From NCBI GenBank assembly GCA_903813345.2, contig CAIIXF020000008.1, positions 3,111,341 through 3,175,340 of the forward strand: DNA of 64,000 nucleotides, given 5' to 3'. The stretch's first letter is position 1. Each line of letters starts with the position of its first letter. Shown here piece by piece: positions 8,081 through 60,400 of this stretch. The position numbers were made by a program, and so were the translations under genes. Origin of the DNA: Owenia fusiformis. Lineage: Eukaryota; Annelida; Polychaeta; Sabellida; Oweniidae. The notes under the pieces are model-generated. The model was not told the origin of the DNA. It did no database searches and saw only the letters and a list, made by a program, of their open reading frames with translations.

Positions 8081-9643
8081 ATGTACACACTCGCACTGAT
8101 CGCTCTATTGGCTGCCAGCGCTATGGCTGACATACCAAGCTCCTGCAAAAGACTCGACTGCCCAAAATTCAAAGTCCTCAGAAAAACAGGCGTAAGTCTC
8201 TTTAGATCCATAATTATCAAAATTAATTTAATGGGTCTGCAGCATCTTGTTGAAATGCATATATCATTTAAAATGCATGTTCAAATTACTAATAACAATT
8301 ATAATTTATTTCATATGTTATTTCTCATTATTTTATTTCCCATTAGAGGAGTTTATATCTCAAAATAATTTTTTTTTTCGTAAAAATATCTCTCAATATC
8401 TCACAATAAATCTATTTTTAGTAAAAAAAGATGTGATGAGTATAAGAAAGTTAATTCTGTTTTGTGATGTATCAAAAGTCGTAAATGTTTTATATTAGAC
8501 CAATCGTATCTCATTAATAAAATACATTCATTCCAGGAGTATGAGGTACGTGAGTACGAGGAATCACGTTGGGCAAGCACGGATGTTTATGACATGGACT
8601 GCAGTAGAGCTCGCAGCATCGGCTTCAAACATCTCTTCAACTACATCTCAGGAGATAATGCAGCTAGTAAGTCTAACTGTTTTTTCTTTTATTGAAACAC
8701 AATAACATATGTAGCATGTGAACTGGCCAAACAAGGGGGTGAATAATAGTCACATAGTGAAGTAAGAATTTAAATAAAAAATGTGTTTGTGCCATACAAA
8801 ATCTTAAATGCTAATTCATGGGTGAATAAAATACATTGAGATGGTCAATTAGGTTGTCTCATCAGAATTATGAACCTTGAACAAATTTTTATAGGTTAAT
8901 ATGGATGGAACTGAAATAGCTCAATATCATTGCATGTGTTTAGTGAGTGTTTGGTAGTTCAATCGAATGGTATCAACAATTTTAATGTTATTTTCAGTTC
9001 TGTTCTGTTTCAATTTAAGTCAGTTCCTCTATTTGAAAAATTAAGTTTGAATTTAATAAAAGTTGTGTCAAGTTAAAAAAAAGTACAAAATATTTTTAGA
9101 TGCCAAGATCCCAATGACTGCCCCTGTATTGACAACCATTATCCCTGGAGAGGGCCCTGCCTGTGAAAGCAACTTCACCGTATCATTCTACCAACCTTTC
9201 AACATGCAGGAGAATGGAGGCCCCGCCCCATCTGATGCTAATATCTACCTTAGTGTTCTTCCTAATGTCACTATGTATGTCAGGTAGGTATATTTTGATA
9301 TTTTAACTGACGTGTCTTATACAGTTGACCAAGGTGAAACTGAATATGATATAGTTTTAAGATTGGTCTCAAGAATTTTTTTTTTGAAATACAATTTCAC
9401 TCACATGGTTGTAAAATGAATGTGAATACATACTTAAGATGAAAATAATTTAGAACTGTACTTGTTTCCAGGTCTTTTCCTGGTTATGCAAGTGAGGAGG
9501 AATATCTCAACCAAGCTGGTCAGCTTGCAGCCGCAATCAACAACCCAGACATATATGACACTGACTTATACTACACAGCTGGCTATGACAGTCCCTACAA
9601 ATTCCTGAACAGACACAATGAGGTCTTGTTCCAAGCTAAATAG
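8081..9643 (+). CDS. Secreted SOUL heme-binding protein (HEBP2-like)
   Basis: Four coding exons: 8081-8191, 8537-8666, 9100-9283 and 9472-9643, in frame across GT-AG introns, giving 198 aa with stop TAG at 9641. Residues 1-16 (MYTLALIALLAASAMA) are a signal peptide, so the product is secreted or lumenal. The SOUL domain follows: an N-terminal CKRLDCPKF segment, YEVREYEESRWAST, IPMTAPVLTTI (the conserved MTAPV strand), and the C-terminal half with FPGYASEEEYLNQAGQLAA and a final FLNRHNEVLF. Length and motif order match the HEBP2/SOUL family, whose members bind tetrapyrroles; secreted invertebrate members are common. HEBP1-like assignment cannot be excluded. The gene converges on TASP1. Introns hold no other gene. 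Confidence 0.9.
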
Positions 9644-20918: not shown

Positions 20919-20954
20919 ACTTTGCAAGGACATTGAATAGGCGAGTAAAGCATT

Positions 20955-21935
20955 ATGGCACTGAGACAAATTTTTGGGAAGGTAATGGATCGTTTTCCAA
21001 CCACACGTTTAGCTTTCGCTTATGGCTCTGGAGTTTTCCAGCAAAAAGGCCACAAGGATATGTCAAAAAATATTTTGGATTTTATATTTGTTGTGGATGA
21101 TCCCATTGTTTGGCATCAACAAAATCTAGTTAAAAATGCTCAGCATTATTCAATACTAAAAAGGCTTGGTGCAAAAGGAATCACATCTATCCAAGATAAC
21201 TATGGTTCTGGAGTATACTTTAACACGTTAGTACCATGCGAAGGAAGGATTATCAAATATGGCGTAATTGGCACAAAGAGGTTGATCACAGACCTGTTAG
21301 AATGGGACACATTGTATGTTAGCGGGCGTCTTCATAAACCTGTGCTTCTATACCAGTACACAGATGAAATAGGCAAGGAGCTAACACATGCCATCAATAA
21401 CAACCTAGGGAGTGCAGTCCATACTGCATTGCTGCTCTTGCCTGAGACATTCACTGAACTGGAACTGTATATGACAATAACTGGACTCTCGTATGGTGGC
21501 GATTTTCGTATGATTGTTGGTGAAGATAAGAATAAGGTGCGTAACATTGTTGAACCAAATATCGAGCATTTCCGTAGCCTTTATCAGCATATTTTGAGCA
21601 AGCATGAGAAGTTGTGGTGGCGTGCTAATGATGGCGTTTATGAGCAACATATCACGCATGTCAGCCAGTATGAACATATGGATGCTCTACCACTATGCCT
21701 CATACAAGGTATGGTCAGGCACTTCAATAAAACTGGCAAGAATTTAGATGTCGAAGAAGTATTACGCATTCTAGCTCAGGATACACATAGTGATGACATC
21801 ATCAAATCCGCCCTGCGTAAGATAGTTCAGCGCTCTAGTTTGACACAGAGTATCAAAAGTATCTTTACAGCAGGGACCATGAAGTCGATCAAGTACAGTG
21901 GAAGTAAATTGAAAAAAATGTTTAAAAGCAAATGA
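20955..21935 (+). CDS. TAMM41: Mitochondrial phosphatidate cytidylyltransferase TAMM41
   Basis: 326 aa, no intron. Makes CDP-diacylglycerol from phosphatidic acid and CTP on the matrix side of the inner mitochondrial membrane, the entry step to cardiolipin. The nucleotidyltransferase signature is visible: AFAYGSGVFQQKG (residues ~19-31), then LDFIFVVDD (~41-49) with the acidic pair. Further conserved blocks are NYGSGVYFNTLV, IIKYGVIGTKRLITDLLEW, AGLSYGGDFRM-type (TGLSYGGDFRMIVGEDKNKV) and a C-terminal SIKSIFTAGTMKSIKYSGSK. Length agrees with the short human isoform. The first Met fits the family start. The vertebrate gene has several introns, so a single-exon form beside SDHAF1 may reflect intron loss or retroposition. 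No poly-Y/AG trans-splice acceptor is apparent in the 36-nt gap. Confidence 0.93.
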   Translation: MALRQIFGKVMDRFPTTRLAFAYGSGVFQQKGHKDMSKNILDFIFVVDDPIVWHQQNLVKNAQHYSILKRLGAKGITSIQDNYGSGVYFNTLVPCEGRIIKYGVIGTKRLITDLLEWDTLYVSGRLHKPVLLYQYTDEIGKELTHAINNNLGSAVHTALLLLPETFTELELYMTITGLSYGGDFRMIVGEDKNKVRNIVEPNIEHFRSLYQHILSKHEKLWWRANDGVYEQHITHVSQYEHMDALPLCLIQGMVRHFNKTGKNLDVEEVLRILAQDTHSDDIIKSALRKIVQRSSLTQSIKSIFTAGTMKSIKYSGSKLKKMFKSK

Positions 21936-25849: not shown

Positions 25850-28800
25850 TTAAAGTTCATCTTTGTCTTTGATGTAGTCTTTTACGCCATCTAAATCTTT
25901 ATCAATTTCTTCTTTGTTATATGTGGGTAGAGCGCTGGAAATACAAGTGCAGTCATGGCTTAGTTATGTTTTGAAATGCACAATAAAGAGGATAAGAGTG
26001 AAATTATTAAGGATTAACAGGCATATTGTCAATACTTTCAACTGGATAGATTCTTGAAAATCTGAATCTTCAATCTTTAGAGAGAAAGATAGTGGAACAG
26101 GCTTAAGAACCATGAATTTTTCTAACTACTGAGCTACTTATATTTAGAGTCAGGGTTTGTTTTGGGCAAGGTCTTATTCATGTGTCAAAAAAGCCAGGGA
26201 TAACCAAAACAAAAATTGATGTTGTCAATGTCATGAAATACACTTTTGATCCAGTCTCTGTCAAACTAAATCAAAAACATTTTAGACATCAATGTTTTGA
26301 CATCGAAAAAAGGTCAATATGTGGAATAATATACAAATGGTGACTGCCACAGTGCATCGGGCAATAGTGTAAATAAGTTCTCCAAGGGAATATCTCAAAT
26401 GAACTATTCTCAAAGCTGTAGCCTTTAAAAAGTACTTGCCTCATGATAGTTGATGATATAGTATCTACCATGCCTCCAGGCTTGCATATTGTGTCACAGA
26501 ACATTGAGCAAAACTTGCAGTATTTACAGTACTGAAATGAAACATGAAAATTGTGAAAACTACATTACTGAAATAAAACATGAGGAAAACTTGAATCTTA
26601 GCAATGTTACTCTCTATTGTGATAAAAAACGGTGACTTTTCTTAATGTTCTAGTCAAAAATGAAAAATATGAAGTTTTAGTACATTTGAATCAGGTACAA
26701 AGTGTAGTATACAATGCATTTGGAAAAGTGATTAACAGCTGAAAGAAAAAAATCATTAATTTAACTTTCACATTTCGGAAATCAAACATTAGAAAAAAGT
26801 TAGTTTCTAGAAAAGTAGAATATTGTTTTTAAGAAATAGTATCAATGATATTACCTTGCACATGTGGCAGTTAGGTTTTCCTGGGCCAGTTGTACATGGG
26901 CAGTCTTCATCACAAAGCTTACAGAACTGAAATAATACAATGTTGTATACACAAGTAAACTTCAGCGAAGGCATGTCACTCGATAAAGGGAACCAGAAAC
27001 CTATATGAAGTAGAAACATATCAATCATATCATGTATGCAAATGTCATCTCTCATGATTTCTGGAAGTTCTGATCTGTTTCGGTAACAATATGGTTACAG
27101 TTTCAAGCAGAAAGTTCGGTGAGATTTTCTAATTTTTTGATTTCTTGAGATATAGCATAAACCATCCCAATCTTTCTGGCACAAATATGTTTAAGCATCA
27201 TATGTTTCTGGAAATCCAAGTGATTTTGCACAAAATAGTTTGTGGGATGACAGAATTTTCAATTTAATTCCTCACTTTTGTAACATAAACAGAACTTCAA
27301 AAACGGTTTCATCTACTTTGAACATTTACATAATAATAGTGAGGTATCAAATCTATGATTCTGCTGTTTTTTGAACTACATGTATTTGTTTGCAATAACA
27401 TATGATACTGAAAATGTAATGAAAATGTTGTTGAAATTCTGCCTACAACTTGTGAAATAAGGAAAAATGAAAAATGTTTCATTGTAAATATTTTGCAATG
27501 TGTGAAAGTATTTAGCCCAAGACTTGATGCATTATGGCTGACTCATTCCACTCAGGCATTGTTTCCTAAACTTTGCATTCCTGCTGCCCAGTCATGCAAA
27601 GATTTGAAAATAACTGCTCCAAGGGAATGATTTACTCATTCAGTTCTCAATCCAGGGCTAATCTTTAAGGTAAGACATGGTCACTGGTTCTGCACTCTTC
27701 AAAGGCCTTCAGACTAGTTACTGAAACAGATCTTTTTCGGAACCTCCAAGGTTCAAGGTGAGTCTGCATTTTCAGAATTTTGCTGCATTTCTCAAATGAG
27801 TCACATGTTATTTTTAAATAGGAATCACTCCTTCACGCTGAACAGAATTTCCTTCATATTATTATTTAAAACTACAAGTGCGGAATTTTTTTCGTCAAAT
27901 ATATTGACGTTTTTCAAATGGATAATGCACATCTTTATCATGATTTTTGAGATTCGTCAGATCGAGATAACACCCTAAAGTTATCCCGTTCCCGGACTAT
28001 AGTCCTGCACTGAGCGCATTCATTTGCCTGTACGATTACAACTTGGGAGAATTATCTACGCCCCTTACACTTAAGATACCTACCTCAATGCATTATAGAA
28101 CTCAAGATGTAACTTCTAATATATTGGAACCGCCGATTGTCTGGGTATATCGGCACAACGGGAACATTTCTCTTTTTCATCGAGAGAGATTCCATCACTT
28201 TTCAAAATGGCGGTTGGATTTAAAAGGGGAATCCCCCGTTTGGCTGTCCCGGATGTAGACCGGAAGTACCAATATGGAGGAATTTGACGGTTGAAATAAG
28301 TTAAATGTTACACGCAAATATTGCGATCAAAAACGAAAATGTCTTCGTTCTGCCGATAAACCCAGACAATTGTGGATTCAACTACACGAAAAGAATGCTA
28401 AATTACCAAGGAATCTATTGAAGTAGGTATCTGAAGTGTAAGATGAGTAAAAATTCTCCCATGTTGTAATCGCACAGGCAAAAGATTGAGATGTTCACAG
28501 GACCATAGTCCGGGAACGGGATAACCCTAAAGGATCTAGAAAAACATATTTAATACCTCATTTTTTCTAGTATTCATGAATAAATATTACGTCACATCAT
28601 TTCGTTATTATGAACTGCTTCCCAGAATCTGAGACCATCATAATTAGGTCTCAGCCAGAATAAAAAAAAACTTAATCTTACTTTTGAAGTTCCGAAAAGG
28701 ATCTATTTCAGTAACTAGTTTGAAGAGTGCAGAACTACTACTTTTTTCAAGGCCTGACTTCGTCGCTAACATGCTAAATATAAGAGTTAGCTGACGTTTG

Positions 28801-29952
28801 GGAGTCTGACTTACCTTCTAAAGGTTAGAACCCAAATCTTAATGAAACCATATCACCTTTGTTGCGTCGATGATGATGCATAAACATAGCATTTGATAGA
28901 AATTAGCGTAAATGCTTTTCCGACTTTTTCATTTTTCATCAATGTTGACTTCCGGGAAGGCGTTGTAGTTATCACGAAATAACGCATTGACCCTTGAACT
29001 TTACTTTGTTGACGTGTCAACCAAGCATGTCTGGTGTGAAAATTAAAAGAATATTAAGCAATGTTCTACATCCGCCAAGCTAAGTGAAGTAGTCAATATT
29101 TAAAATTACCAATTTCAAGTGAAGTACGCAACGAACGAAACTGCGTGATCTACACTCGCACTATTGGTCTGAATGAAATGCTACGTAGAAATATGAGCCG
29201 TCTGCTGTATTAGTCGATTAATAGAGTAAGACCTGTTGGTGATGCTTTATAATTTAGACCAAAACATTGAAGAACAAACGAACCTGTAAATCGTGAAAAC
29301 AACGAACAAATATTCAGTTTTCACATATGTTCGGTAATTTTTCGTATTGAAACTTCCGGAACTTACAAGGAAATCATTCATTTTCTCGGTCCATGATTTA
29401 CCTCTTGGATGTTGTGGCAAATGCTCCATGGTTGACGGAACAAAGGTGATATGGTTTCATTAAGATTCGGATTCTAACCTTTAGAAGGTAAGTCAGACTC
29501 CTAAACGTCAGCTAACTCTTATATTTAGCATGTTAGCGACGAAGTCAGGCCTTGAAAAAAGTAGTAGTGACCATCATAGGCCAAGGGAAAAGTAATAGTA
29601 AACTGTATATATCTTCTATAGAATCTATACGGCTTACTATTACTTTACCCTTGGCCTATGGTGACCATGATATACAATTTTAATTGCAAGACACATTCAT
29701 TCTAAAGTAGATCTGATATTTCTAACCAATGGAATTTACCTTGCAATAAGTGCAATATCCGCATAATGATCCCTTCGCATATTCCAATTCCTCTTCGGTT
29801 ATTGGCTTTTCACCTTCCTCTAGCGTAGCAGCATCTTCACCAGTTGTTGCTGTATCATCTGCACATAACACAACTCCGGCTAAAGTCAATATAAAGACTA
29901 AAAAGTAAACTTTGTTGGACATTTTTGAAATTTTGGAAATCGTAACCTCCAT
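25850..29952 (-). CDS. HRC-like Cys-rich ER-lumenal protein ending in KDEL
   Basis: Exons 29740-29952, 26855-26926, 26440-26531 and 25850-25934, in frame, 153 aa from the first ATG (or 143 from the inner Met at 29922, which starts the signal peptide directly). Signal peptide NKVYFLVFILTLAGVVLC; short acidic spacer (EEGEKPITEEELE). A 14-Cys module follows: CGYCTYCKFCKLCDEDCPC, then NCHMCKYCKYCKFC, CDTICKPGGMVDTISSTIM. The acidic end is DKDLDGVKDYIKDKDEL with a C-terminal KDEL. This pattern (CxxC ladder, then xCxxxCxPGxxVDxxSS) matches the C-terminal domain of vertebrate sarcoplasmic-reticulum HRC, without its His-rich repeats. Likely role: Ca2+ handling or redox/metal binding in the ER lumen (inference). 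Exon 3 ends in a GC donor (ATGAG|gcaagt). The 2.8-kb first intron is packed with nested foldbacks. Confidence 0.85.
27690..28733. mobile_element. Outer foldback in HRC-like gene intron
   Basis: GTTCTGCACTCTTCAA plus ACTAGTTACTGAAACAGATC at 27687-27735 is mirrored at 28682-28733 (ttccgaaaaggatctatttc, agtaactagtttgaagagtg). The left arm has a 10-bp extra piece. The interior carries the independent element 27980-28525. Confidence 0.6.
27980..28525. mobile_element. 546-bp element with ~115-bp inverted ends and 6-bp duplication
   Basis: Ends GTTATCCCGTTCCCGGACTA and the inverse. Arms extend through gattacaacatgggagaatt and cttacacttaagatacctac. CCTAAA lies on both sides (27974-27979, 28526-28531). 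The interior has ttccgccattttg-type and GGAATTTGACGGTTGAAATA sequence. A second, older copy is at about 48905-49400. No ORF. Confidence 0.7.
28734..29568. mobile_element. Foldback with nearly identical ~138-bp arms
   Basis: 28734-28871 (ACTACTACTTTTTTCAAGGC, ttagctgacgtttgggagtc, ccttctaaaggttagaaccc) is mirrored at 29431-29568 with only a few mismatches, so the pairing is recent or maintained. Between the arms the minus strand has ATG at 29429 encoding MEHLPQHPRGKSWTEKMNDF, followed by a consensus donor (ctt|gtaagt), an exon-like piece of unknown origin. A directly abutting 86-bp hairpin follows at 29575. Confidence 0.7.
29575..29660. mobile_element. 86-bp hairpin MITE with 8-bp target duplication
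   Basis: CATAGGCCAAGGG and its exact inverse bound a palindrome (aaaagtaatagtaaac arms). GTGACCAT is repeated exactly on both sides (29567-29574, 29661-29668). An 8-bp duplication and CA... ends suit hAT-type mobilisation. Confidence 0.7.
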
Positions 29953-30397: not shown

Positions 30398-31421
30398 GGG
30401 ATATCACGTGATTTGACTTATTGTAATCAAGACCTCTCGAAGATATCATAGCATCCTTTCAATATTGGATACATGAAACCCATTTAATTAAGTGTACAAA
30501 TGCTGAGAGCACTTGTCAGAATAGCTATATTATGCAGTAAAATGGAGCCTGTTATCCCTAATCAGAGACATATATGTCTCTGCCCTAATCAACCAAAGTA
30601 AGACATTCCTTAGTGCAAATTCAGAAGGTAGTTGCTTGGTGTCTTCTTTGAAATGAAAAATACATTTAGAAATTATTTTGAAAAACAGATGATGCTTCAA
30701 TATTACTTCATCTAACTTTGACCATCATATGCCTAAAACTATAAAATGAAACCAATATAATAGGTTAGGTGCGTTTTCATTCTGTTTGAGTAACCCATCA
30801 CTCTTCAGTTCCATATATGGCTTCAATTTTGAATACGAGGGTATGGCTTCACTGTATACACTCAGGTGCATGAGGCTGAATTAACAAAACAACATAATTT
30901 CTTTTATATACTGTATTCATTTATTACTTTATATTCAGAATAGCTTAGCTGCCATTAGAAAACGGGAAAATAGAATTGTTATGATATTTTAAACAACAAA
31001 TTGTGAATCATAAAGTGAACATTCCAATGCAGGAAAATAGAAAAACTTGATGAATTTTTCTGGAATAATTTCAAATAAGACTGCTATATGTGTGCCTGTG
31101 CGTAGCTTCATGAAATACATTGGGAAAGCCATTATTCATGTTATTTCACAAAACTAAATATATGTATAAACAAGTAACATTTGAAATACATGTATGATGT
31201 ATCTTCTTCATCGTCACAATAAGCAACTACCCCTTCCATTCTTCACCTTATTGCATGAATTACAAGCTAATATTGTTCGGATTTATCAACTGTCATGACC
31301 AATTTCTTTTTTTTGATCATCAGAGTTAACAAAGCTTATTACAAGCATTAGCTGCATTGAGATCCCTCTAAACATAATGGCATTTGGCAATACGCATATC
31401 TACTATAGGCATATACATATA

Positions 31422-31502
31422 CGAGGGTTGTCCCAGAAGTAATGCACTATATGCTCTAAGAAAGATAGAGCATATAGTGCATTACTTCTGGGACAACCCT
31501 AG
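31422..31502. mobile_element. Mariner-end hairpin, TA target
   Basis: An 81-bp near-perfect palindrome. Each arm reads GGGTTGTCCCAGAAGTAATG then CACTATATGCTCT; TA flanks both ends (31420-31421, 31503-31504). The arm resembles the terminal inverted repeats of invertebrate mariner elements (GGGTTGTCC...AAGTAATG, from family knowledge). Only the fused ends remain. Confidence 0.7.
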
Positions 31503-32282: not shown

Positions 32283-35200
32283 TTATTCCATCTTGGGGAA
32301 TGCCGTGGTTGGCTTGCTGACTCCAGCATCTTGCTGGGACCACATCTGAGTGACAGTCTTTACTTGAGTGTAGAAATTAATTCCCTGAAAAAATAAATAG
32401 AAAAGTATTTATTTGAGATCACTAGGATTCATATGTACACTGACACCTTTTAACAACCAGTTTCAACAACTATGATACAAGTTTAGCGCAATACTTAACA
32501 CCTTGAAAACATTGATAATTCAGCATCAGAAAAGTTTGTACTTCTACTAAATAAAGGTCTTGAGGAAATAAAATCATTCAGTTAGTCAATAAAAAGAATA
32601 TCAAGGCTAGTTGACTTACTTGTTTTCCATAGAAGTTTGTGTCTCCCCTGAATGATCCTCTTGAGCCAGTAAATGAGAACATGGGCAATGGTACAGGGAT
32701 AGGTACATTTACACCAATCTGGAAGAAAATATTGGAATTGGATATATATATTGGAATCAAGGAATATGGGGTGTTCATAATACTAACACATAGTTCATGA
32801 AACTACATATAAAATATGATGTGGAATTCTAAATCATGTCATGATTCAAGTCAACTATAAACATGTTTTATTGTTTGCATATTGCTTACATAAGTTCATT
32901 CAAGTACAAGTGCATTCAGAAGAATCTATAAAACCCTACCTGTCCAACATCAATTTCTTGAGTGAATTTCCTAGCAGTTGCTCCATTAGTGGTAAAGATT
33001 GCAGTGCCATTACCATATGGGTTGTTATTTATAAGCTCAATAGCATCATCAAGTGTGTCTACCTCAGTGCTGACTAAAACTGGGCCAAAGATCTCCTCTG
33101 TGTAGCATTGCATGTCGGGCTGGAATGCAATTATGGGAAAGGCACATTAAGATGGCCAAGTAGAGTGATTCTGGATAATCGTTTGGCTTTTATATATACA
33201 GTACAGAAAAATATGTCTGATCTGAATGCAGCTGGGACCAGCAAAAAGTATTGATTGACAGGTGTCTATATTTCATAATTTTGATAAAATTTTCGAAAGG
33301 GTTTCATGAAAAATCAAACATTGACCAGGGTGAAGTACACAGTTGCTCTACTGTAGGGGAAACCACAATGACGGCATATTGGTAATTGACAGATCCAAGG
33401 TTATCAAACAACATAGATTTGGGAGTACTATTATTAACTACCATTCATGAAAACACAGGATCTGGTAAAGGGCAAAAATTGTGGATTCAAAACTGTTCTT
33501 GTGCATACACTTTTACGTACATTAACTGTTTGCCATTGATAATGTTATCTTGAACTCACATGGGGCATATGCATATAAAATACAAATAATATTGGGCTAA
33601 CAGTATTTGAGTTATTGCCTGGATGGGTGGATGTACGGATGGATGGACATATGGATGGCTAGATCTATGGATGAAGCCATTTTCTATATCTCCCAAACTT
33701 TGTTTGATGGGATAATTCAAGAGGTTGACATACCTTTACTTTATGTAACACAGTTGGGCCAACAAAGTTGCCTTTCTCATAGCCTGGAACTTGAACATCT
33801 CTGCCATCTAACAGGAGGTCTGCTCCTTCATCTACACCTGACTGGACCAATCGCAGCACCTTCTCCTTTGCTGCAGGGGAGATCAGGGGCCCAAGATCAG
33901 CTCCTGGTGCAGTGCCTAGAGATTAACTTATATTATTAATGATGTGATAAAACCAACCATTTAGACAGGTATGAAGAAAGGTAATGTTGGCAAAAACAAA
34001 TATCTTGTTCCATCGGATGAATCTGTTTACACTGAATGAACACAAAGGTGTTGAAGTTACCCTATATGTCAAAGAAATGTCAAAATGAGACAAAATGGTG
34101 CTAAACATTACTAAAATTTTCGAGTCATATATCAAACATTAAATATTTAGCATCTTACTTGTGAGAGTTACAACAATATCTTTCCTTATGCATCAAGGTT
34201 CTCTATCAATATCTTCATCAAAATATTTAGCATCTTACTATAATTATGAGAGCTACTACAATATACATATGCATCAAGGTTCAGTTAAAATATCTTCATG
34301 AAAATATTTTCCAGTTTAACTTACCGACATTGACACTAAGTTTACTGGCTCTTTCTACAATTTCAGGAATCCATTCTTTAGCTTCACCAACAAACACAGC
34401 AGTTGACAGTGCCATACACCTCTGCCCTGCTGCACCAAATGCTGCTCCTACCAACTGGAAATATGAAATGAAATAGTAGTTTGCCCACAAACTATTTTGT
34501 CCCCTTTATCATCTTTTTGATTCAAGAAGAGGATGACTTTTGGAGTAAGTGCCCACTTGGGTTGTCTGTTCAATAAACACCACATTGATTGACTAACATG
34601 CAAAATATCAGCTATAAAAGGATAAAAAGAAGTCAATCCCCTGACCTGAGCTGAGGTTAATTTGGGGAAAACTCTGTATGGATTCAACTTTTGACAGCAA
34701 TGTTCACATTATTCTTTCAACCTAAGGTCATACAAGATGTATGAATCACTAAAAAACATGAAACCAAGTTTATCATGTTATCAACAGCTGTCCTTATTGT
34801 GACCAAATCATCAATGCAAGACATGCACATTATACCAAATCGATATAGCAAAAGTTTTCTTCAGTATCTTTCTTTTATCAGTTGAAAGGATTGATCATTG
34901 AACTGTAGTAAGTTATCGTTCATTTTGTAGGCCCATAGCCAGTATTTGCCAAGAAGGGCTCACTTTTTAAAAAAATTCCAGGGGGTTCACATTTGACAAC
35001 TATGGCCCCAAATCACTTGAAAGTGCTCAGAAAGGTGATGAGCTGCATGATTTTGGAAGAATGTTTGGCCAAGGGAGGGGATGGGTTCTCTTGGCCCTAC
35101 TGGCTATGGGCCTGTTTCGTCATGTGTCAATGCAGGGAGTTCTCTAAGACAAACACTTACCTGGTTGATGGTACTCTCCTTGTTGGCATCAGGCATGATG

Positions 35201-38200
35201 ACACCATGGTTCTTGGCTCCCATGTTGGACTGAACACGTTTGCCATTCTTTGAGCCTCTCTCATAGATATGTGTTCCCTAGAGCATAAATAACATTTATA
35301 TAAGATCTCTACAACATACATTACATTTACATATGACCTCTTACATTTATGTTTGACCTCAAGAACATCGATTACATTAATGAATGAGCTCTATATATCA
35401 TTGATAAAATTAACATTCCTTGTATTATTGCCCTTAACCAATAGTAATTGTGATACATCATATATCTATTATAACAAAATTGAATAAAAGCGGTGATTTA
35501 CTTTTATTTTTACAGAAAATTCATGAGCAAGAGAAAAAATGTTTTGCCATCAATTACCAAAAAGGTTTACTTACAGCCTGGTCAGAGCCAACGAATGAGA
35601 TTGCTTTTATATCAGGGTTATCACAGATGAAGTTGACAGCTGAAAAAACAAATGACACATGTTATAAGTAAATAACAAGGCATTAACATGCAAAATATCA
35701 CTGCCTGCCATTTGTTACAGACACCAAATGCCAACCGCTGATCACCGAACACCATCCAGAAAAAAGTTGGAGACTAACAATGTGTCACCACTTGTAGCCG
35801 GAACATAAAAATGGCATATTGATAATACAAATGACACTTAAAATACAGATTATACGAGGATGAAACAAAGGAAATAGGAATAGAATATACAAATATTGAA
35901 AATAGTAAAACAAAACATAGAAAATATTTATGTCACATGGAAAAAACAAATGACCAAAGAAATGATACAAATCACACACGTAAAAAACAAATGATGCAAG
36001 GAAAATACAAATGACAAATAAAAAATACTTATGCGATGTGGAAAATACTAATGCCAAATGGAAAATACAAATGACACCAGGAAAACACCAAAGGAATATG
36101 AAAAGTGACACATTTGAAATACTTATGCCACATGGGAAGTATGACACAAAGAAAATACCTATGAAACATGGAAAGTATTATAAATGACAAGTGGAAAATA
36201 AAAATGACACTTAGAAAATACCATGCCATATGGAAAATGTAAGTGACACATTAAGTATATATCTTTTAAAGATATGGAGAATAATACAGATGACACATGG
36301 AAAGTCTGCATGGTAACATACATGTATATCAATAACAAAATTTTTATCTCAACAACAGTATATATCTATCAATATCAGAATGCGTGCTCTATAATCTAAA
36401 ACCCTCTCCTTTCTGAAAATTCCAGGGAGGGTTTACATTTCATAACTTTGGCCCAAAATCACTTAAATATTGCTTATAGTGAAATGATTGATTTTTAAGG
36501 AATCTTTGGCTACCCCTGTGGCTACAGACCTGATCTTTAGACATATGGCAATATATTGCTAGCTTCGGGTTCAGAATAACTTTTGGCAAACCAGAACAAC
36601 GGCAACGCCAAAGCGTAGCAAATCCCATCAAACAGAAATGGCTGGCATTTTTACAAACGAAATATATAGAATCATAAAATAACACCCATAAGAAAGTAAG
36701 TAGCCACATATAAAATTTTTAAAAAATGTCACACACACATGTAAATGCTGGTCATTTTTTAAAATTGCCACCTACTACCCAAAATGTCAAAAGACAGTAT
36801 GCAATCCTTACAAGTATTCACATATCAAATATGAATAAAATCGCTCTATTACTTTTTGAGTTTTAATAAAAAATGTAAAATAACACACATAAAAATGGTG
36901 GCCATTTTTTAAAATGGCTGACTACATTAGACAATGTGCCATGCTTAAAGTATTCACATATCAAATATGAACAAAATTGCTCCAATACTTTTTGAGTTAT
37001 AGTAAAAATGTAAAAATGACAGCCATTTTGAAAATGGCCGCCTACTACGCGAAGTGTCATGAGACAGTGTGGAGGGCTCATGAGAATTCACATATCAAAT
37101 ATGAACATAATCGCTCCACTACTTTACAAGTTATAGTAAAAAATGTAAAAATGGTGGCCATTTTTCAAAATGGCTGCCTACTACCCAAAGTGTCATTAGA
37201 CAGTGTGCCATGCTTATAGTATTCACATATAAAATATGAACAAAATCGCTCTACTACTTTTGAGTTAAAGTAAAAAATGTAAAATAACACACGTAAAAAT
37301 GGTGGCCGCCTATGACCCAAAATGTCATTGGACATTGTGCCATGCTTAAAATATTCACATACCAAATATGAACAAAATCGTTCCACTACTTTACAAGTTA
37401 CAACAAAAATCATAAAATGACGTGCAAAGGCAGCCATTTTTCAAGATGGCTGCCATGTATTTCTTCTATATTTACATTGAAAGCTTAATCAATGTCATAT
37501 ATAACTTTTTTACATTTAAAACATATTGCTATTACAGTTTTATATGCAGTACCTAAATTACTGTAAAATCAACACTAAAATGGCCGCCATTTTTAAATGA
37601 GCGGCCATTTTGAAAATCGGTTTTCGAGCAGAACTTCTACCCCCATTGGGTATATGTATACAAAATATGAACAAAATCGGGCCATCGGTATTTGAGTTAT
37701 TGCCCGGACGGACGGACAGACGGACGTATGTACGGACGGACGGAGGCGTTCCCTATCCCTCCGAACTTCGTTCGATGGGATAATAAAAACTTACAATCAT
37801 GTGCTCCATGGATGACCTGAACGATGCCACTAGGGAAACCTGCTTCTTGCGTCATCTCCATCAGCATCATGGTTGCTCCAGGGTCACGCTCTGATGGTTT
37901 CATTACCATTGTGTTGCCACATACTAGGGCCATTGGGAACATCTGCAACATATAATAAAAGGAATATGAATAATTCAATTGAAATGCTTTGAAAGCATGG
38001 TATACTGTACATGTACTAGTACAAAGTACTATTTTTAAAAATTAGATGATGTTACATTCAGACAACACAGTGATGGGATAATGTATATCAAGTAAGTAGG
38101 AAACAAAATACAAAACATTTTTTGATGGCATGACAGAACATTCTTCACTTGACTTATCCAAGACACTGAAGATGCACCCAAATGTTGAAAAATATTTTAA

Positions 38201-41200
38201 TTCTGAGACCAAATGTCCAACAAAATTAAGTTCCATGCTTTAATCCTCAGATTTAAGGAGGAAACTCATTTACATGTTATAATAGGTGATGTTATCTTTG
38301 TGGACTTTGGGCAAGCTAGTGGAATTATGTTTGATAATTACTGCTGATTCTAAGGCATCTGTCAAACAAGTAAATAAAAAATAATATTGATGACTTTGAT
38401 GATAAGCACCATTGAGTGACTTTGATAGAACATGGGTCTCAAACATGATGAGCTGGATACTCCTTGCAATTTTCACACTATTAGTAGGGGGGGGGGGGCT
38501 ACAAATCAGTAGATTAGGCTAATCAGTATTGAGGTATTATCGGGTAATTGAAAAAAATTCCATTCATACACATACTTTCATATTTACACAACATTCAAAA
38601 TTATTCATAAATCTAATTTCTCTAATGTGAGAATTGGTTGGCCCTGAAAAGGGCCTTTGGATTTCGATTGCGTCTTTTTCGTCTAATTTGAGGATGCAAT
38701 GATCTCTTCATCCTCATCAAATGGTTCCATTTCCTCATCTTCCTCATCAGTCACCATGTCCCACTCATCATCTGTGTCGTCATCTTCATCATCTGAAAAT
38801 GTCATCCCTTCAGCACGTTTCTTCAACTCCTCAACTTTGGCTGCTTGCTTCATGGCATATTCGTACATCATACATTTCAGGCCAGTCATCACGGAGAGGT
38901 TCAAGCGTAACGTGTATCTCGCTGATTGCTTGTTGTTCTTCACAGCACGTTGATAGCGGACCTCAATCTGCTTCACCTGATCATCAATGAGCAAAAGCTG
39001 GTCACATGCTCGGGTGAACTTCTTGTACTGAAGTTCGATTTCATCACGTAGCATTCTGGGTGTCATATCTGTTCCTTCATAGTGCTTCTCATTCACGTCA
39101 CTCTCACCATGGTGATGCTGTCCAGCAGCGGCAACGGCACCAACAGGAACATCATTTGAAGCAGCACTAGTAGCCATGGTAACTTATTAGTTGTTGTCTT
39201 GCTGATTGAACAAAGTAAACTGAATTGTTGTAGAATTCACTGTGTCTTTATAGCAGAATGCTGGAGCAGCTTAGCAATGTGGTTTCTCTTAGAAGCCAAA
39301 TTGTAGAATGACTTCAGAGATCCCCTGATTGGGTTATATATTAGATAGTTGGCTTCCTGTGTGTCAATATTGTCACTAATGTATATGGCATGTTTTGATA
39401 AACTGCCACCTGGCAGACTAATTAGCATACCTGACTCTGGTTAATCTCTTTAATCTCCACATGACATGTACAAACTGTACAGGTAAACAAACAAGATCCA
39501 AACTCAGGTAAGTCAATAAATAAACAAACAAATGTTTCAAACTGTGAAATACAAACATAGGGAAGTTTTTGTTTTTAGGGAAAGGTGTTGATGTTTGGGA
39601 TCAAGTGTAATCAAATGCAAACAATGGGATTAAAGAGCGCAGTTCCTGAATGAGATTCATATCTTTAAAGCAGCATAAACTTAGATAACCATCTAAATCA
39701 AATTAACAATATTAATGAAATTCAAGTTCAAATTAGAATCTAAATTCATCCAGGATGTCTATCATTTGATCATTCTGTGATCATCACACCATTCTATTTT
39801 CAAACAATCAAAAAGATGATCTCTGATGATGCCAGCTGATTATTTGAGCAATTTTTATAAAAAATAAGATTAAGATAAATGATGCATATCATAAATCATA
39901 TTTTGCCAAATGTTTTATAAATAATCTTTGAAAAAATTATCTATTTTTAAATCAAAATATATTTTCAGTCGGTGATGATATCTTGATTGCAATTAGCCTT
40001 TCGTCATATGTCTATCATTTGAAAATGAAAAGATCATACAAAGAGATTATCTGACATGTGTATGACATGATGAATTAGAATACTGCCATGTAGTGGCATC
40101 TGCCAATATGTGCATCAATAATCTGACAGTTATATAATCTGCAAAATGGGCATGGAATTATCAGTGGTCATGTCTTGAGAATCATATCAAGAAAACACAA
40201 GGAAAAGAGAGGAATTAGAAAAAGAAGAGAGGAATTGGAAAACCAGGTGGGTGAAATGTCAACTCTTTTGTTCTATTCAAATAAAAAAGCCTTTGATTTT
40301 TATCTTCAAAGACCAAAGCGAAATGAATGAAATCATTATAAACCAGAGGCATATATTATTTCTATGCCTTTTGATAAACCATATCATCACTTTTCATTCT
40401 TGAGATCATGCTTCAAAAACATATCACATTATGTCAAAATTGTTCAAATGTCATCACTTGGATTATTTGGGAGGGAATATTTTGATTGCTTTTATAGTCA
40501 CACTCCTTATTAGGCTTTGTCTACTTATATAATCATACCACTGCAGGTAATGCCTTCCCAAATTGCTCATGGTCAAATGATCCCTTTAATTGATTTGATT
40601 GGTTCCTTCAATTTTTGGGTTGGAGGAAATGCTCTCTGCAGTCTTCTGCTACTGTCTATTCTAAGGGATATTACAGACTGTCGATCCCACAATCTTTGGA
40701 AAGTTGATAAGAATATTTTTCATTATTACAATATTGAAAGATGGCAGCAAATAAAAAGTATATGTATCATAAAGCCAATGATTTTAAGGCAGTTCTGCAT
40801 GGTAAGAATTTTTATGTAATTTTCCTGATTATAATTATAAATAGTTAGTAAATGGGTAATCTTTTCAAGTTTTTATGTGGATATTTACATGTTCTAGAAT
40901 GAAACTTCCATGAATGTTTTTCCATATTCTTTGGATAAGTACAAAATTACCTTAAAGGTTGAACAATATTAGTGCAGAGATGTGGCCAACGATTTTGGAC
41001 CTAGTGTCAAAATATATTAAAGTTTGGATATTTCATCAAGGCTATAACATCTATTTTCATTATTTATAGAGAAACCCCCTGAATGAACGTTATTTCAGCT
41101 GAAATTCCTGCATTTAAAATCTTGGAATATAGCATATCTTAAAAATCTATAAATGGGACTCCTCTTATAGAAACTTTAAACTTAATTTACACTTCTAAAT

Positions 41201-44200
41201 GGTGAATAGATAGGCATGTCCTTACATTTTAAGAAAATAGGTCTGACAAAGAAGATGTTAAGCCAAATGTTGCCCTGATAGCTCAGAAAATGTGAAATTT
41301 TTCAATTTTTCTCTCTACAGGCCTTGTTGCCACTTTAAGGATGAATGGAAACAGCAAAACATCAAATCTATTAAACAACAGAGGTGTCAAGGAAAAAAAA
41401 TTGGAATGATTCGGTTAAGAACATGAGGTAGTCTTTCTTGGCTAGAAGCCAAGTGAAGTGAAAAGGTAAGATTTTCTTGTTTTGGAACTGAACAGAAACA
41501 TTGTACATTGTATATTTGTTCTGACACAAGAGCCTTCAATGAATCGAGATATCAGCTATCCGTGACAACTATCCTAAAAAAATGACAATTCTTTCAAATA
41601 GTGAGGAAGGGGTGGGGGCTACTACCCTACAAGAATTGTCAAAACCTTACTGTGGTATTGATATAAATCTAAAAAATAAACTTACCCATAATGGAATCAT
41701 GGCAGGAAAATTAAATGGTGTGATGCCAGCAGTGACACCTAGTGGGGTTCTGTAAGAGACGAGATCCATATCTTTTGCGATACCTTGTAAACTTTCCCCT
41801 AACTGGAGGGATGTGATACTGCAGCAATGCTCAACTACCTCTGTAAAAACAAATTTATATCATTAACACATTGTATGAGATTTTCATTTTTATTTCTGTT
41901 GAGTATGGAACATGAAAGGCACTGAATTTAACATGAAATCTTTAATAAATACTTTAATAATGATTAACCAAGTGGCTACTTATGTAGGTAAATATGTTCT
42001 AAGATTAAGGAAAGCTACCATTACAAAAATGCCTCTGATTCAATTTCAAATATTTTGGGGTATAGTTACATTTGATGACAACCTGACTTTACTTACGGAG
42101 GCCTCTCATGACGTCACCCTCTGCATCCACCAATGTCTTGCCCTGTTCCTCTGTTATATTAGCTGCAAGCTTTTTCTGAAAAATATGCATATCATAGCTT
42201 CATCCAAAAAATATTGAAGGATCACCAGATGCAAGCTTTTTTCTGAAAAATATGCATAATACTGTAGCTTCATCCAAAGAATATTAAAGGATCATCAGAT
42301 AAACCTAAATTCATATAAATCAATTCTGCTATCCAGAGGATAGTCTTGCTTCAAGACCCTGGACTAAAAATATATGGATAAAGATTTCATTGTGTGAAGT
42401 TATTTTGGCATACAGTTATTGAAAATTGCGATCGTTATAATCGGAGATGATGAGGTGTTTTTTACAGCAATTTATTTTAGGTCTTTAGTGAATCATGCTT
42501 TTATGATTTTGTAATTTTATTTATGTGCTCACCTCATTTTAGTGTTATTCTGGGTAAGAATCAATTGTTGTATTCATTCTTATAGAGGCTAAAATTGTTA
42601 TTTGTTTCTTTATTAACTTAAAGTACTACAGTGTACATACTATATCTCTTTTGATGATGTTCTGAAGGTTGAACATAAGACCCTGACGGGTGAGGGGGGT
42701 GGTCTTGGACCATGTCTTGTAGGCTTCCTTAGCCCCTGCCACTGCTGCCTCCATCTCATCCTGGGTGGATACAGGTACACGTGTGACCAACTCATTGGTT
42801 GCCTGGAGGAATATGAGCAAAGCTTAAACAACAATTTACGATTCAAAATTTCAATCTGGGCTTTGTGGCTTTAGTTCAATTACTAGGATACAGCAAACAA
42901 TATCCAGGGGTCAAGATTAGATAAAATGAAAAAATTGATGCTATGCTCCTATGAAAAATCCTGGGTAGAGCATTTGATACCATGCAGTGTATGTCGATAT
43001 CATGATATGTACTTACTGGGTTCGGCAGGTCAATCCATTTGTCTGTCTTGGATTCTACAAACTCGCCATTGATGTACAGCTTGGTGGTTGGCTGGAAAAT
43101 ACAAGTGCAAATCATATAGAGTGAACAATAAAATATACAATTATAGTAATATTTAAGTAAAATAGACCATATAATTCTTCAATATGCAAAATACTTTCTG
43201 TATTTATAATTCAGAAATCTTTTTATTCAAAACATCCATGTTGGGTTAACTTCCCTAAAATTTAGATGTTCATCAGAATAATGTTAAGAGCTTGGGATAA
43301 AATTAAAGCTAAGAAATGCAATACAAATGAATGAACTTAACATTTGCAGGGGAGGGGGGGGGAAATTAGGAGCCATTTTTCAAACTCTGGGCTTAATTTT
43401 TGAAAATTAGGGCATATTTGTCAAAAAGTTAGGCCCATTGTTACCTCTGATCCACCAGTGATATAAAACATAGTTACATTGCAAGAATCAAATTGAATGA
43501 TCATAGATGAAGAGTGTACAGTATATGTATAAGTGGCTCAAATATTTATCTGCTGTACAATATATATTACAGTGTACATGTATTACTTTAAATGTAATTA
43601 CTGCATTACCCCTATTATCTATACATTAAATTATAAATGCACTTTATTTCCTGTACTGTTTTTGATTGGTATTCTGATGGTTAAATAATCAAATACTTAA
43701 TTGAATACAAAACATGTACATGTCTTCCAGTTTGACAGATTTTTGTTGACTCAGTAGCTTCTATATACTTTCAAAGTCTCTCTCAAGGCTTACTTTAATA
43801 TTTTATGTTTTTTATTTTACTTCTTTGAGGATATTGATACATTTTATGAAAAAAGTTTAAATTGCTTCATTATTAAGCATTTTGACAAAAACCATTGTAA
43901 CAGAGGATTTATGCCTGTGCAACACCATGAAACTTTTCATTATGAAAATTTTCATCAAAATGCTTCGTAACAAAGCGATTAAAACCCAGGTAACAGGAGG
44001 TACCAGGTACTATTAAAGGGATAATAACCTCAAGTAAAAACTATGATTCATAAGAATAATAAGTCTATAATCAAAAACATGACCCGGGTATGAGCGACGA
44101 TCTTCTAATGCATCGGCAGATATATTGGAATTAATTTTGAGGTATTGGATCTTCACCTGGATTATGGAGGTCGCCATAACCTACCTATGAATATTCATGA

Positions 44201-54405: not shown

Positions 54406-57400
54406 TTAAAGAAGATTAATAATTTCTTCCTCAGTGTCAGTTTTGTAGTGACCAACTTTGTCAATATCCTTCTGTGGGTTTTTGTCATATTCACCAGCAT
54501 CACTGAATAATTTTTTCTGCTTTAAATGTTTAGATCTCTGTAGTTTGTGTCCCCTATACATGGATGTAATGTTTTTCTGGGACATATTTAAGAATTTCAT
54601 TTGTTTCTTTGATTCTTCCATCCCAATAGTTTTAGCTTTCCTTGCACTAGAAGGCCTTTTTAAAGGTATTTCACTTGATTTTAGAGGTGATATGAAATTA
54701 ATGGAGTCATTTCTAGAGGCCCTTTTTAAATCTGGACTCTGATTATCATTCTTTTGTCTCTTGGAATTTATTTCAGTTCTGTGCTTCAATTTTCTTTTTA
54801 TTATTTTTTCATTTGTCACTGAAAGAATGCTGTTTCTTTTTGGACCAATTTCAATGTTTTGCTTTACAATATTTGGAGATTTAACTTTTTCCTTTATATC
54901 AGTTGCACCTGGTGTTGTTTCCGATTCGTAGAATATGTTAGGTGTCGCAACCTCAAAACCATACTCTGCGTGCTTTACTTTGGCAATTGGGGATAAATCC
55001 ATGAGATCATTTTCTGAATCAACCAAATCAAAAATATTTAAATCAACATTTTTGATATCAGTTTCAGTTTGAGGTTGAACATCAAACAGTTTTGACTGTC
55101 TACCAGGTTTAACAGTTTGTTTAGATGTAGTTGATGCAACCAACTTTAGGCTGTCTTGTATAGATTTTGGACTGACCTCTTTTTGTTGTATAGAGTCCAG
55201 CTCTGTGTTTGTAACTATTTTTGTTTGAAGATTCCTGCCATGTTTAATGATATCTCTAACTGGCGTGATGAGCTGAACAATTGTATCATTACTATCTTCA
55301 CTGTCAATACTACCATCATTAATTTCATCATCATCCTCAAATTCAGACGCAATGGATTTTTGTACACCTGGTTTCATCTTAGGAATTCCAGGTACTTTGG
55401 ACACTTCAGGAAGTCTAGGCACTTTAGATTGAGCAGCATTTTTTAGTGTAATAGCCTTCATATCATGATGGTCAACATGCACCTGTTTAGCTAATTTGAG
55501 TTCTGCTTTTAAGACTACATGTTTTCTATTCTGATCATGAACTGGGGTACTGTTACTTGCTCCCGAATCCTCAACTGGAAAGTGTTCAGATTTCATGAAT
55601 TTGTGACTCGGAGATGGGCCTAAAACTAAACCCGATTCCTCCTCTTGGTAGGGTCCATCACAAGGTGAACTCCCATTAGAATCTGTCTGTTGGTATACAG
55701 GTTCAGGGCTAGAATAGAACTCGTTGAAGTCGCTATTGTCTGAAATTCCAAGTGGGTACTCATCTAGCTGAGAATGAAGTGTATCATCAACATATGAACT
55801 CTGGTCTCGATCAGTATCATCATTTTCTTCACTAGCATCATCATCCTGGTTCAGTTCCTTATCATCTCTCCCTTGTGTAGGTTTGCTTGACATTTCGCTT
55901 GATTCACCAATATTCTCATTTGGAAAAAGTATCACGGTATCAGATGGATGTGAAGTTTTAATCAGTTTTTCATATTGTTGGTCAATAATTTTGTCCATTC
56001 TTGACTTCTTTGGTTTTATATTATTGTCCTTGCTGGTCTCAATATCTGGAGGTTCAGTATGACCAGGTCTAACTTGAGAGGGAGCTATTTTAGGCTTCTG
56101 AGATATTGATTTTTCTGTTTTGAGATTTGTGTGATTATTTTCTTTTGCAGTTAAGTTTGACATTTCTTTATCAATCTTTGATTTGAGATCTTTGAGACTG
56201 AGTTGAGTATTTTTTACACTTGACACACTGTCCTGAGTAAGGGCAAGGGGTTGATTGCTCAACTGCTGTTCAGAAGGACGTTGTTTGGTCCTTTGCTGTT
56301 GACCAGAAGGTTGTTTCTTCCTTTGAAATTGAGCAGTAGACAGTTCTTTCACAGGATCAGCTGACCTAGGACATTTATCACTAGTAGTCATAGTCCTAGA
56401 AATTCTAGTCCTGTTATCAAAGCAGGAAGTTTCAGTTTTAATATTGCTATTATTCCTAGAGTCCATTATATTCGAGATCACATTTTTACTGTGACGCTGT
56501 ATTTCTATCATTGCTGCATTGCTACTGCTGTTCAGTGTATCATTAGTGCTGTTTAGTGCATCATTAGTGCTGTTCAGTGCCGCATTAGTGCTGCTCAGTG
56601 CAGAATTAGTGCTGTTACTCTTAGTCTTGGTATAGACTGTTTGACCTGACAACATTTGTTCATCTTCTTCATTTGATATTGTGCTACTATTTACATTGCC
56701 TCCTGGTCCTGAGCCTGTAGTAGTTTCTTCATTACTATGCCTCCTGGGACCTTTATAGACACCAATCCTTCCTTTAGAGTGTCTTGTTTTGTTATGTCCT
56801 CTATCAAGGTTAGTGTCATATGTTACATTTTCAACTCTTTTATCGTCTCTCCTACAATTCTCCTCAACTAAATTAGGACTAAGATGTCCATCATTTTCAC
56901 TGTTTAAGTTTTTTCTATTATTTCTGTTAGTTCTTTGATTTTGATTCCTTTCACTTTGAATTACTTGACCAGTTGCCTTTCTTCTCTCATTAGTCCACAT
57001 TTTACTGTCAGTCCTTACATCTCCTATTTCCACATTGAATTCAGCATGTTCTCTAGACCTGCTAGACATGCCCTCACTATTTGTTGCATTACTACATTCA
57101 CCATATGGCTTAAATGCACTCTGTCTTTCTATGTTTAAAGAACTTTGACTTTCCATTTTTGATAATTGAATAGCCTCAGAACCAAAATCTATAGTGTCAG
57201 TTCCGAAATGTAAATTGTTTGATGTCTTAAGTATTCCAGTCCTTGAGTCAGAAGTTCTTGGATCTCTGTGGTTTCTATATTCACTTGAATCCTCATTAAA
57301 ATTGTAACTTTCTTGTCTATAACTTGATCTCAGTGCTGTATCTGGGTTGTTTGTTTCCTCTTCAGGTTGTGGGCTTGTTGTTTCTCTCTTGACAGGCATC

Positions 57401-60400
57401 ACCTGGGCAACTGGCTTTAAAGGTTCTGGTCTGCTTCCTGTACCTGCAATACAATATGAGCAATGTACTCGAAGTCTAGGGATTGATTTTACCCTTCTGC
57501 ATACAAAGCTAAGATCTTGACCAAACATGCCCTGGACCTTTCCATAAGGGGACAATGATCATATAGCTTTCCCTGAATTTAAGAATTTAAGACGTTCTCT
57601 AATTGTTTCTGTTATTAATGAAATATACAGTTATTGTAATAATTTGTCAAACACAGACTACAAAGCAACTGAAAAGCTGATACAATTAATATTCTTTAAT
57701 ATACTTTAAATTGGCGGATTGACCCTCATCGATCATATTTCTCACTGCACAGTTCATCCCATATGATGCATTTTTATCACTCCTGGTATCAGATTATTTG
57801 ATCTAAACAAATGCATGAGAATTTACCATGTTTGAGAAGTTCCCTGGAGGTCCTGAACAGTTGCTTGTGGTTCTTGTCTATATAAGGACCATCCAGTGAA
57901 GCGTATGTTGTCGCACGCACTGCAATGTTATTGTACTTGTCCATCGACCCTGAATAAGAACATCATCCTGACATGTCAAGATTTTAGATTGAGAGCATAG
58001 TGAGATTGAAAGCTGCCAAACAAGTAATGCATCCAAGATGTTTAAAATTCTTTCACAGAATTTTGAGAACTATTTTTTCTTGGTGCCATATAATACAATA
58101 TTTATATATATATACAATTATACAATATTTCTATATTAAATGAGAAGAGTTGTTTGCTACTGAAGATGGATGCACATATACTCAAGTAAATAATTTAACA
58201 CCTGAATACAATCAGATTCATTGTACAACAGGCTAAGTATGAAAACTGAAATACATATTCCAAACTGTTCAAAAGGTTTTTGAGAGTAAAATTATGAGAT
58301 AGGAATGTACCATCAATATTAGGCATGCTGTAGAGGAAAGCCATCTCTGGTACGAGGAATGGATGCTGGAATGCCTCCGCTGGCGTCATCCTCTCTCGGG
58401 GGTCATATCGCAAAAGTCTTGACAGGAAGTCTGCAAACTGGTAGTGGCCAGGTAGCGGAAGATGGACAGATCTCTCTGAACGTGAATTCCAGTTTTTGTA
58501 AATAATGCTAGAGTCTGATTTCTCTGTCATGGTTTTTTGCAAGGAGAGTGTGCCTAAAGAGAAAATGTTTAAAAGATAGAACTGGGTATATATAAAGCGT
58601 TTCATGTATATGATACATGAAATGGCTCAATGAAAGAGATACAAAGAGATAAAAATGAATAAACTTGACAACAGCAACTCCCTGTAGTAGATAATCCCAA
58701 AGAATAGAACATATATCATCAAGTCAAATAAAAATAATAACAATTTATAGATGGTCATGTAGATTTTTTTGATAAATCTACAAAATTATTGGAATATGAG
58801 ATCACTGTTTGCAATCATGTAGCATCTGAACATACCATCAATCTGTTTAGATTTGGTGCAGAAATCTTCAAGTTCAGTGAAATATTTGCCTCTTTGATAA
58901 ACATCAGTTGGTAATGGCCCCAAGATCTTGGTCATCTGAAACACAGGATATTCAAAGGTCTAATAGCGATAATTAATTCTAATCTTCATTACTCTTAAAG
59001 GCCCTGTATAACGTTTAAACAATTATAACTTTGCACGGGCCTTTGGTATGTGTGGTATGTAACACAATCGACAGATTTGGACACAGCCTATATAATAATT
59101 TCCTTGTTTTGGTCAAAATATCTCAATATTTTATCCCTTTGACAGAGTGCAAACAGACTTTTAACATGTAATTATTTTTCTAATAAGTTTTTATTTCAGG
59201 TTAGCAGCATTACAATTAAAGTAGATGCACAGTGCAATCAAACAAGATTGTACATAATAGTGATTTAAAAAGTTGTAGATTATTTCTGCCAAGAGCTGAA
59301 ATACATAAAAATTTTGACTTGATAATTTCTACATTCTATGTAGATTCTTTGGAGTGTGTTATACAATTAAACAGGAACCTCCTAGATATTCTATCTTACC
59401 TCTTTAAGAATCCCTGGTTTATCCTTTCCATAAAACAATGGTCTTCCAAAGAATAGTTCTGCTAGTACACATCCAAGTGACCACAAATCAACCTCTGTAC
59501 CAAATGGCATCCCATAGATAACCTGAAATCAAATCTAATCAGTAAGTTTTGTGTTACTGAGGACAATTTTAGTTCAGTTTTTTACATTTGGATGTGTGAT
59601 TTATAATTATATATTTGAAACAAATAGCTGATTAAAGATCTACTTTATCTTACTCCATGTAAAACCATGGATTAGGACTTTACCTCAACATCTTTCAAAA
59701 ACAAAGGACTTATCTTCCTCATTTTTATTTCATAGATTATACTATACAAGATCATGAATCTTGAATCTCCAAAGGAAAAATGGCACTGAAAGTCTAATTT
59801 GGAAGATATTACAATGTGGTGACACCTAAATAAGGCTGAAAACAAAGGATATCAAATTATCATACAAAAAATTGTACATACCTCGGGGGCTCTATATAGC
59901 AGGGTTTGCAGCTCATAATCCTCGTAATAAAGAGACACCTCGTTGTGGACATAGTGGATTGCATTGCCAAAATCAATCACCCGCAATGAAGACATGTCTC
60001 CCTCTGAAATACAGATAATGCAGATGAGTATTTCTGTAGCATGTAAGTGACCTTTTTTATTCAGTTACCCTTTATTCAATACAATTGACCTTTATGCAAT
60101 GCCAATGACAATTTTTGACTAAGTTAAATACAATGCAAGTGACCTTTATCCTATGCAAGTGACCTTTGTACATTTGCAAGCAAAATGTGTACGAAGTAAA
60201 TGACCATTTTTTACTCAGTTATAAACAACAATGCAAGTGACTTTTATGCAATGCAAGTGACCTTTGTACAAAGCAAGTGACCTTTACTCGAATACCAATG
60301 CAAGTTACCTTTTAACTAACGAATGACCTTTGTAGAATACAAGTGACCATTTTTTACTCAGTGACATTTTTACAATTTGAGTAACCTTTTAACTAACAAG

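Follow-up and report, generated by a model that had tools for sequence, protein, structure and literature searches.

HRC is a regulator of calcium cycling whose Ser96Ala variant has been linked to human arrhythmia, according to excerpts of a review that bases its description of the protein on Hofmann et al. (PMC6171002). Its carboxyl end is described there as containing 14 closely spaced cysteines arranged in a Cys-X-X-Cys pattern, and a C-terminal Cys-rich region is also described in excerpts of a second review (PMC9026860). According to the same excerpts of the first review, triadin is bound by the Cys-rich region, which covers residues 609-699, and the interaction of HRC with triadin is Ca-dependent (PMC6171002). 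The His-rich/acidic repeats of HRC have been reported to bind triadin as well (Lee et al. 2001, cited in PMC6171002), and the Cys module is therefore not the sole triadin site as far as these excerpts describe it. No invertebrate HRC module was found among the matches listed in open-licence PMC papers. The HRC name used for C. elegans ttm-4 and in plant papers is probably a label derived from acidic or His-rich repeats and was set aside.

Here we describe a predicted gene of the annelid Owenia fusiformis that encodes a module resembling the HRC carboxyl end within a small protein terminating in KDEL. The gene lies in a contiguous stretch of 64,000 nucleotides (64 kb), which is referred to as the window.

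Gene structure and predicted protein

The module is encoded by a predicted four-exon gene on the minus strand, which extends from a first ATG at 29952 to a stop codon ending at 25850; the span of 25850-29952 given in the original prediction coincides exactly with these ATG-to-stop limits. Spliced translation of the model yields a joined frame that is open over 153 codons and ends in KDEL, with intron phases of 0/0/2 and neither stops nor frame breaks in any of the four exons. Exon 1 (29740..29952, minus strand) contains the start codon(s), the hydrophobic leader VYFLVFILTLAGVVLCA, a short acidic linker and the first cysteines of the ladder (LCGYCTYCK), and is followed by the donor AAG/GTAAAT. 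Exon 2 (26855..26926, minus strand; 72 nt, phase 0-0) encodes FCKLCDEDCPCTTGPGKPNCHMCK, exon 3 (26440..26531, minus strand) encodes YCKYCKFCSMFCDTICKPGGMVDTISSTIM(S), which includes the HRC-like segment, and exon 4 (25850..25934, minus strand) encodes (S)ALPTYNKEEIDKDLDGVKDYIKDKDEL followed by the stop codon, comprising a DxDxDG-type stretch and the C-terminal KDEL. Introns 1 (26927..29739) and 2 (26532..26854, donor AAG/GTAATA) are both of the GT-AG type and phase 0, with acceptors ending in TTTCAG, and intron 1 contains nested inverted repeats. Intron 3 (25935..26439) is a phase-2 GC-AG intron with the donor GAG/GCAAGT and an acceptor ending in TTTCCAG. The KDEL of the predicted protein depends on the use of this GC-AG intron, as a competing GT donor located 4 nt downstream (CAA/GTACTT) would lead to a protein ending in ...IMRQRSTHI and the loss of KDEL.

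The predicted protein consists of a leader, the short acidic linker (up to 9 D/E per 20 residues), the 14-Cys block, CDTICKPGGMVDTISS, an acidic 28-residue tail and KDEL. A second in-frame ATG is located upstream of the leader, which is the most hydrophobic stretch of the protein (Kyte-Doolittle mean of 2.86 for residues 17-31, compared with 0.97 or less for all 15-residue stretches starting beyond residue 35), and by hydropathy the N-terminal signal feature of HRC is present. If the leader is cleaved after LCA, as assumed here, the mature soluble protein would comprise ~122 residues, of which only one is a His. The true C-terminal KDEL claimed in the original prediction was borne out in the spliced frame: KDEL terminates one of the 1539 stop-to-stop ORFs (at least 25 aa) in the window, and none of the remaining ORFs carries another KDEL-like end ([KRHQSAN][DENQST]EL). 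The features of a KDEL-retained protein of the ER lumen, namely a leader, a C-terminal KDEL and KDEL-receptor domains encoded in the same genome, are all present, and the leader together with KDEL suggests that the predicted protein resides in the ER lumen. The acidic tail contains DKDLDG, a DxDxDG-type pattern that is suggestive only, since 2000 of 200,000 tail shuffles also produce one; an EF hand was ruled out by eye, with Lys at loop position 12.

The 14-Cys module

The module contains 14 cysteines within 48 residues, separated by gaps of 2,2,2,2,3,1,8,2,2,2,2,3,3 residues; the number of cysteines is as originally predicted, while the span is tighter than the ~60 residues proposed. Eight Cys pairs show C..C spacing, compared with a mean of 3.6 and a maximum of 9 when the module was shuffled 20,000 times. 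High Cys density is not unique to the module, as at least 6 Cys were found in 10 of the 29,007 stop-free 24-residue stretches of the window, which fall at two sites, exon 2 and ~9550-9629 on the minus strand. The latter is a Cys-dense open stretch with 7 Cys in 24 residues (HCVCSGICRDCHSQLCSISQCHIC) and without a CxxC ladder. The two Cys halves may stem from an internal duplication, but the evidence is no more than suggestive, with the observed score being reached by 41 of 5000 Cys-fixed shuffles. It is a matter of speculation that the two five-Cys runs (period 3, then an x3-C step) could align on extended or 3-10 helices.

When the spliced protein was scanned against Pfam and NCBIfam, no model exceeded its cut-off, and the sub-threshold Pfam rows v110 (E 0.16) and FGFR3_TM (E 1.3) were taken as chance. 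Similarly, PDB sequence searches with the protein and with a profile combining the module with the HRC tail described below produced no significant match (best E 0.34). The fold of the domain, proposed to be unknown in the original prediction, is thus undescribed insofar as neither Pfam nor PDB sequences matched it significantly. The best PDB sequence match was a 2[4Fe-4S] ferredoxin-like segment of NuoI, whose likeness is confined to the CxxCxxCxxxCP stretch that begins at the end of exon 1 and continues in exon 2; it was non-significant (E 0.34 and 0.64) and was dismissed as a chance Cys match. Fe-S clusters would furthermore be unexpected in a protein of the ER lumen. Prokaryote and viral collections were screened for relatives from contaminating animal DNA; 28, 4, 73 and 122 stretches fitted the pattern, none of which was confirmed by tblastn.

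Comparison with vertebrate HRC

The human HRC tail used for comparison is a provisional sequence, chosen with the window in view, and its alignment to the module is hence not independent proof of relatedness. Module and provisional tail, compared as a single pair, share 28 of 66 identical residues (BLASTP E 1e-17), and the spacing between cysteines is the same in 12 of the 13 gaps. The local score of 176 was reached by none of 5000 Cys-fixed shuffles of the provisional tail (mean 89, sd 12.4, max 143), and when Cys was masked in both sequences the observed score of 47 was reached by 1 of 5000 shuffles, again with the provisional tail. A search of the genome with the provisional tail identified exon 3 as the single match (38% identity over query residues 31-64, E 0.004), whereas the first half of this tail matched nothing in the genome, exons 1 and 2 included. 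The provisional tail did not match any Pfam model either. Searches for HRC or module peptides in print yielded only an unrelated hepatitis C sequencing paper containing CGYCTYC, a string of the window that is absent from the provisional tail.

The original prediction had matched the CxxC ladder and the following segment ending in SS to the C-terminal domain of HRC. The resemblance stands, as indicated by the published description, the alignment to the provisional tail (which includes CDTIC-PG--VD--SS) and the genome match of exon 3, whereas for exons 1 and 2 it was not reproduced in the genome search. We consider the resemblance of the module to the HRC C-terminus to be well supported, partly through the provisional tail, and the module may be homologous to the HRC tail, a reading that likewise draws in part on the provisional sequence.

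The Owenia protein shares with HRC the 14 closely spaced cysteines in a CxxC ladder, as published for HRC in the excerpts cited above (PMC6171002), a leader peptide, an acidic stretch ahead of the module and, judged by the provisional HRC tail, a C-(D/E)-T-x-C-x-PG-xx-VD-xx-SS segment. In contrast to HRC, neither His-rich/acidic tandem repeats nor poly-Glu were found in the Owenia protein, whose longest Glu run is three (TEEELEY) compared with 13 residues in HRC as given in the review excerpts (PMC6171002). The Owenia protein is also much shorter (153 residues, whereas the human HRC numbering in the same excerpts reaches 699; PMC6171002), carries an acidic 28-residue tail after the module, unlike HRC, and ends in KDEL, which is missing from the end of the provisional HRC tail.

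Search for His-rich repeats in the gene model, its flanks and the genome

Four of the open segments of at least 45 aa starting at 22-33 kb passed a loose filter for His or acidic residues, and none was both His-rich and acidic. The most His-rich of these segments (5 His in 20 residues) arises when exon 3 is read on into intron 3, and even its most acidic stretch of 20 residues contains no more than 2 acidic ones. The HRC repeat family PF10529 was found in 0 of 1 genome, in a test that is weak since its 14 controls gave a signal in 1, with 0 over cut-off. The original proposal that the module stands alone, without His-rich repeats, therefore holds for the gene model, for the flanking open segments of at least 45 aa and, with a weak control, for PF10529. 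As His-rich acidic repeats were not found, the gene is regarded here as a carrier of an HRC-type module and is not filed as HRC.

Genomic context and candidate partners

In the 498-Mb genome (525 contigs), the module matches this locus alone, with the exception of one match at E 7.7, and searches with the tail and with exon 3 led to the same locus. In the exon-by-exon genome match of the module, exon 2 was recovered at E 1.7e-12. Genome searches score only the best candidates, and the counts of module, KDEL-receptor and RyR matches are hence lower bounds. KDEL-receptor domains are represented by at least two matches at a single place in the genome, one of which contains internal TGAs, the usual outcome when an exon match extends into intron sequence. 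RyR domains are represented by at least four matches within one 44-kb stretch, one of them with an internal TAG. Vertebrates have three RyR genes and three KDEL-receptor genes, so that the single site seen here for each makes a non-vertebrate host likely. A COX1 search aimed at placing the clade gave no match. The same genome also encodes ASPH-type hydroxylase catalytic domains. The N-terminal family of triadin, junctin and ASPH (PF05279) had no match in the genome, a weak test in which three candidates were scored. Calsequestrin (PF01216) had no genome match either, and as the control was silent too, this provides no evidence of absence.

Within the window, intron 1 of the gene contains nested inverted repeats (27707-29568), the largest arms of which measure 148 nt and are 94% complementary (28734-28881 / 29421-29568); these resemble mobile elements of the foldback type, of which there may be one or several. 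At 29572-29663 lies a tight hairpin whose 41-nt arms are 88% complementary and enclose a 10-nt loop, and a near-perfect palindrome around AGGGTTGTCCCAGAAGTAATGCACTATATGCTCT, recognized by eye at ~31420-31500, may be what is left of a terminal repeat of a DNA transposon. Other features identified by Pfam include a SOUL heme-binding domain (9060-9284, plus strand), Tam41_Mmp37, a mitochondrial phosphatidate cytidylyltransferase (20949-21932, plus strand), and aldehyde dehydrogenase exons (32919-33146 and 37700-38041, minus strand). Beside the latter, on the same strand, lies an open frame of 166 aa (38686-39183) whose end is acidic and which has a sub-threshold Pfam match only (DUF1985). It would fall inside the aldehyde dehydrogenase gene should that gene start with the open frame at 42879-43178, a start judged by eye only. 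Furthermore, the window contains a 1050-aa open frame (54409-57558, minus strand) that is Ser/Asn/Lys-rich by eye and without a Pfam match at E 0.01.

Proposed function and alternative explanations

We hypothesize, with a probability of roughly 0.5, that the module is homologous to the HRC tail and forms part of a KDEL-retained adaptor in the ER lumen, which would dock on membrane proteins involved in calcium release. The N-terminal signal would take the protein into the ER, and the KDEL receptor would return it there. Its core would represent the same 14-Cys module as the vertebrate HRC C-terminus, that is, the homologous domain alone, without His-rich calcium-binding repeats. The module is most likely a small binding platform whose fold is held together by disulfides or by bound metal, and which by analogy could dock on calcium-release membrane proteins in the way that the Cys-rich tail of HRC docks on triadin. 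The acidic flanks, including the DxDxDG-type stretch, may confer calcium dependence. A luminal adaptor is our first guess because the Cys-rich tail of HRC binds triadin and the HRC-triadin interaction depends on Ca, as described in the review excerpts (PMC6171002). The docking partner is a candidate only, since the weak test for the N-terminal family of triadin and junctin gave no match.

The main and serious rival to a calcium-release adaptor is thiol exchange or metal handling, in which the CxxC ladder of a protein of the ER lumen would function in disulfide exchange or in the binding of zinc or heavy metals, with no link to calcium release. We regard this as unlikely on balance. It is favoured by the eight C..C pairs in 48 residues and by the even number of cysteines in a thiol-oxidising compartment such as the ER, whereas the Pfam and PDB sequence searches identified no thioredoxin-fold or other redox family. 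Moreover, CDTICKPGGMVDTISS, which resembles the provisional HRC tail, reaches past the ladder and would be needless for a bare metal trap. Even as a thiol or metal protein, the Owenia protein may be related by descent to the HRC tail, a region that has been suggested to bind heavy metals.

Convergence seems improbable; in this case the protein would be a Cys-rich resident of the ER with no relation to HRC, and its period-3 Cys ladder would have arisen independently. The ladder itself may have prompted the comparison with HRC, the HRC tail used is provisional, and Cys-rich sequences inflate alignment scores, as seen in Cys-fixed shuffles that average as much as 89 of the observed 176. Against convergence, however, stand the Cys-masked score, which is still so rarely reached by shuffles of the provisional tail (1 of 5000), the same spacing at 12 of 13 gaps with that tail, and a Cys count equal to the one published for HRC (excerpts of PMC6171002).

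It is very improbable that the real transcript takes the GT donor of intron 3 or other exons and so lacks KDEL, or that the gene is a decaying copy: intron 3 does require a GC donor, with the alternative GT donor only 4 nt off, yet GAG/GCAAGT is near the U1 consensus, which GC donors usually match closely, the exon 4 frame with its KDEL (one of 1539 ORFs) suits the phase-2 join, and the four exons are joined without a stop or frame break.

Evolutionary implications

The 14-Cys module may tentatively be viewed as an ancient, unnamed ER-lumen domain of animals, known here from one genome, that was originally carried by a small invertebrate KDEL protein. HRC would then have added His-rich calcium-buffering repeats in front of the module and dropped KDEL, and a luminal calcium-release adaptor would predate HRC. 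The original prediction likewise suggested that the Owenia protein could represent an ancestral ER form that gave rise to muscle HRC. Alternatively, the repeats may have been lost in the Owenia lineage, or the module may have been gained by another protein. The free-standing module, at about 85-90 residues, would be small enough for expression and structure solution, and would separate the function of the module from the calcium buffering by the repeats. It could also show when this part of the calcium-release complex arose.
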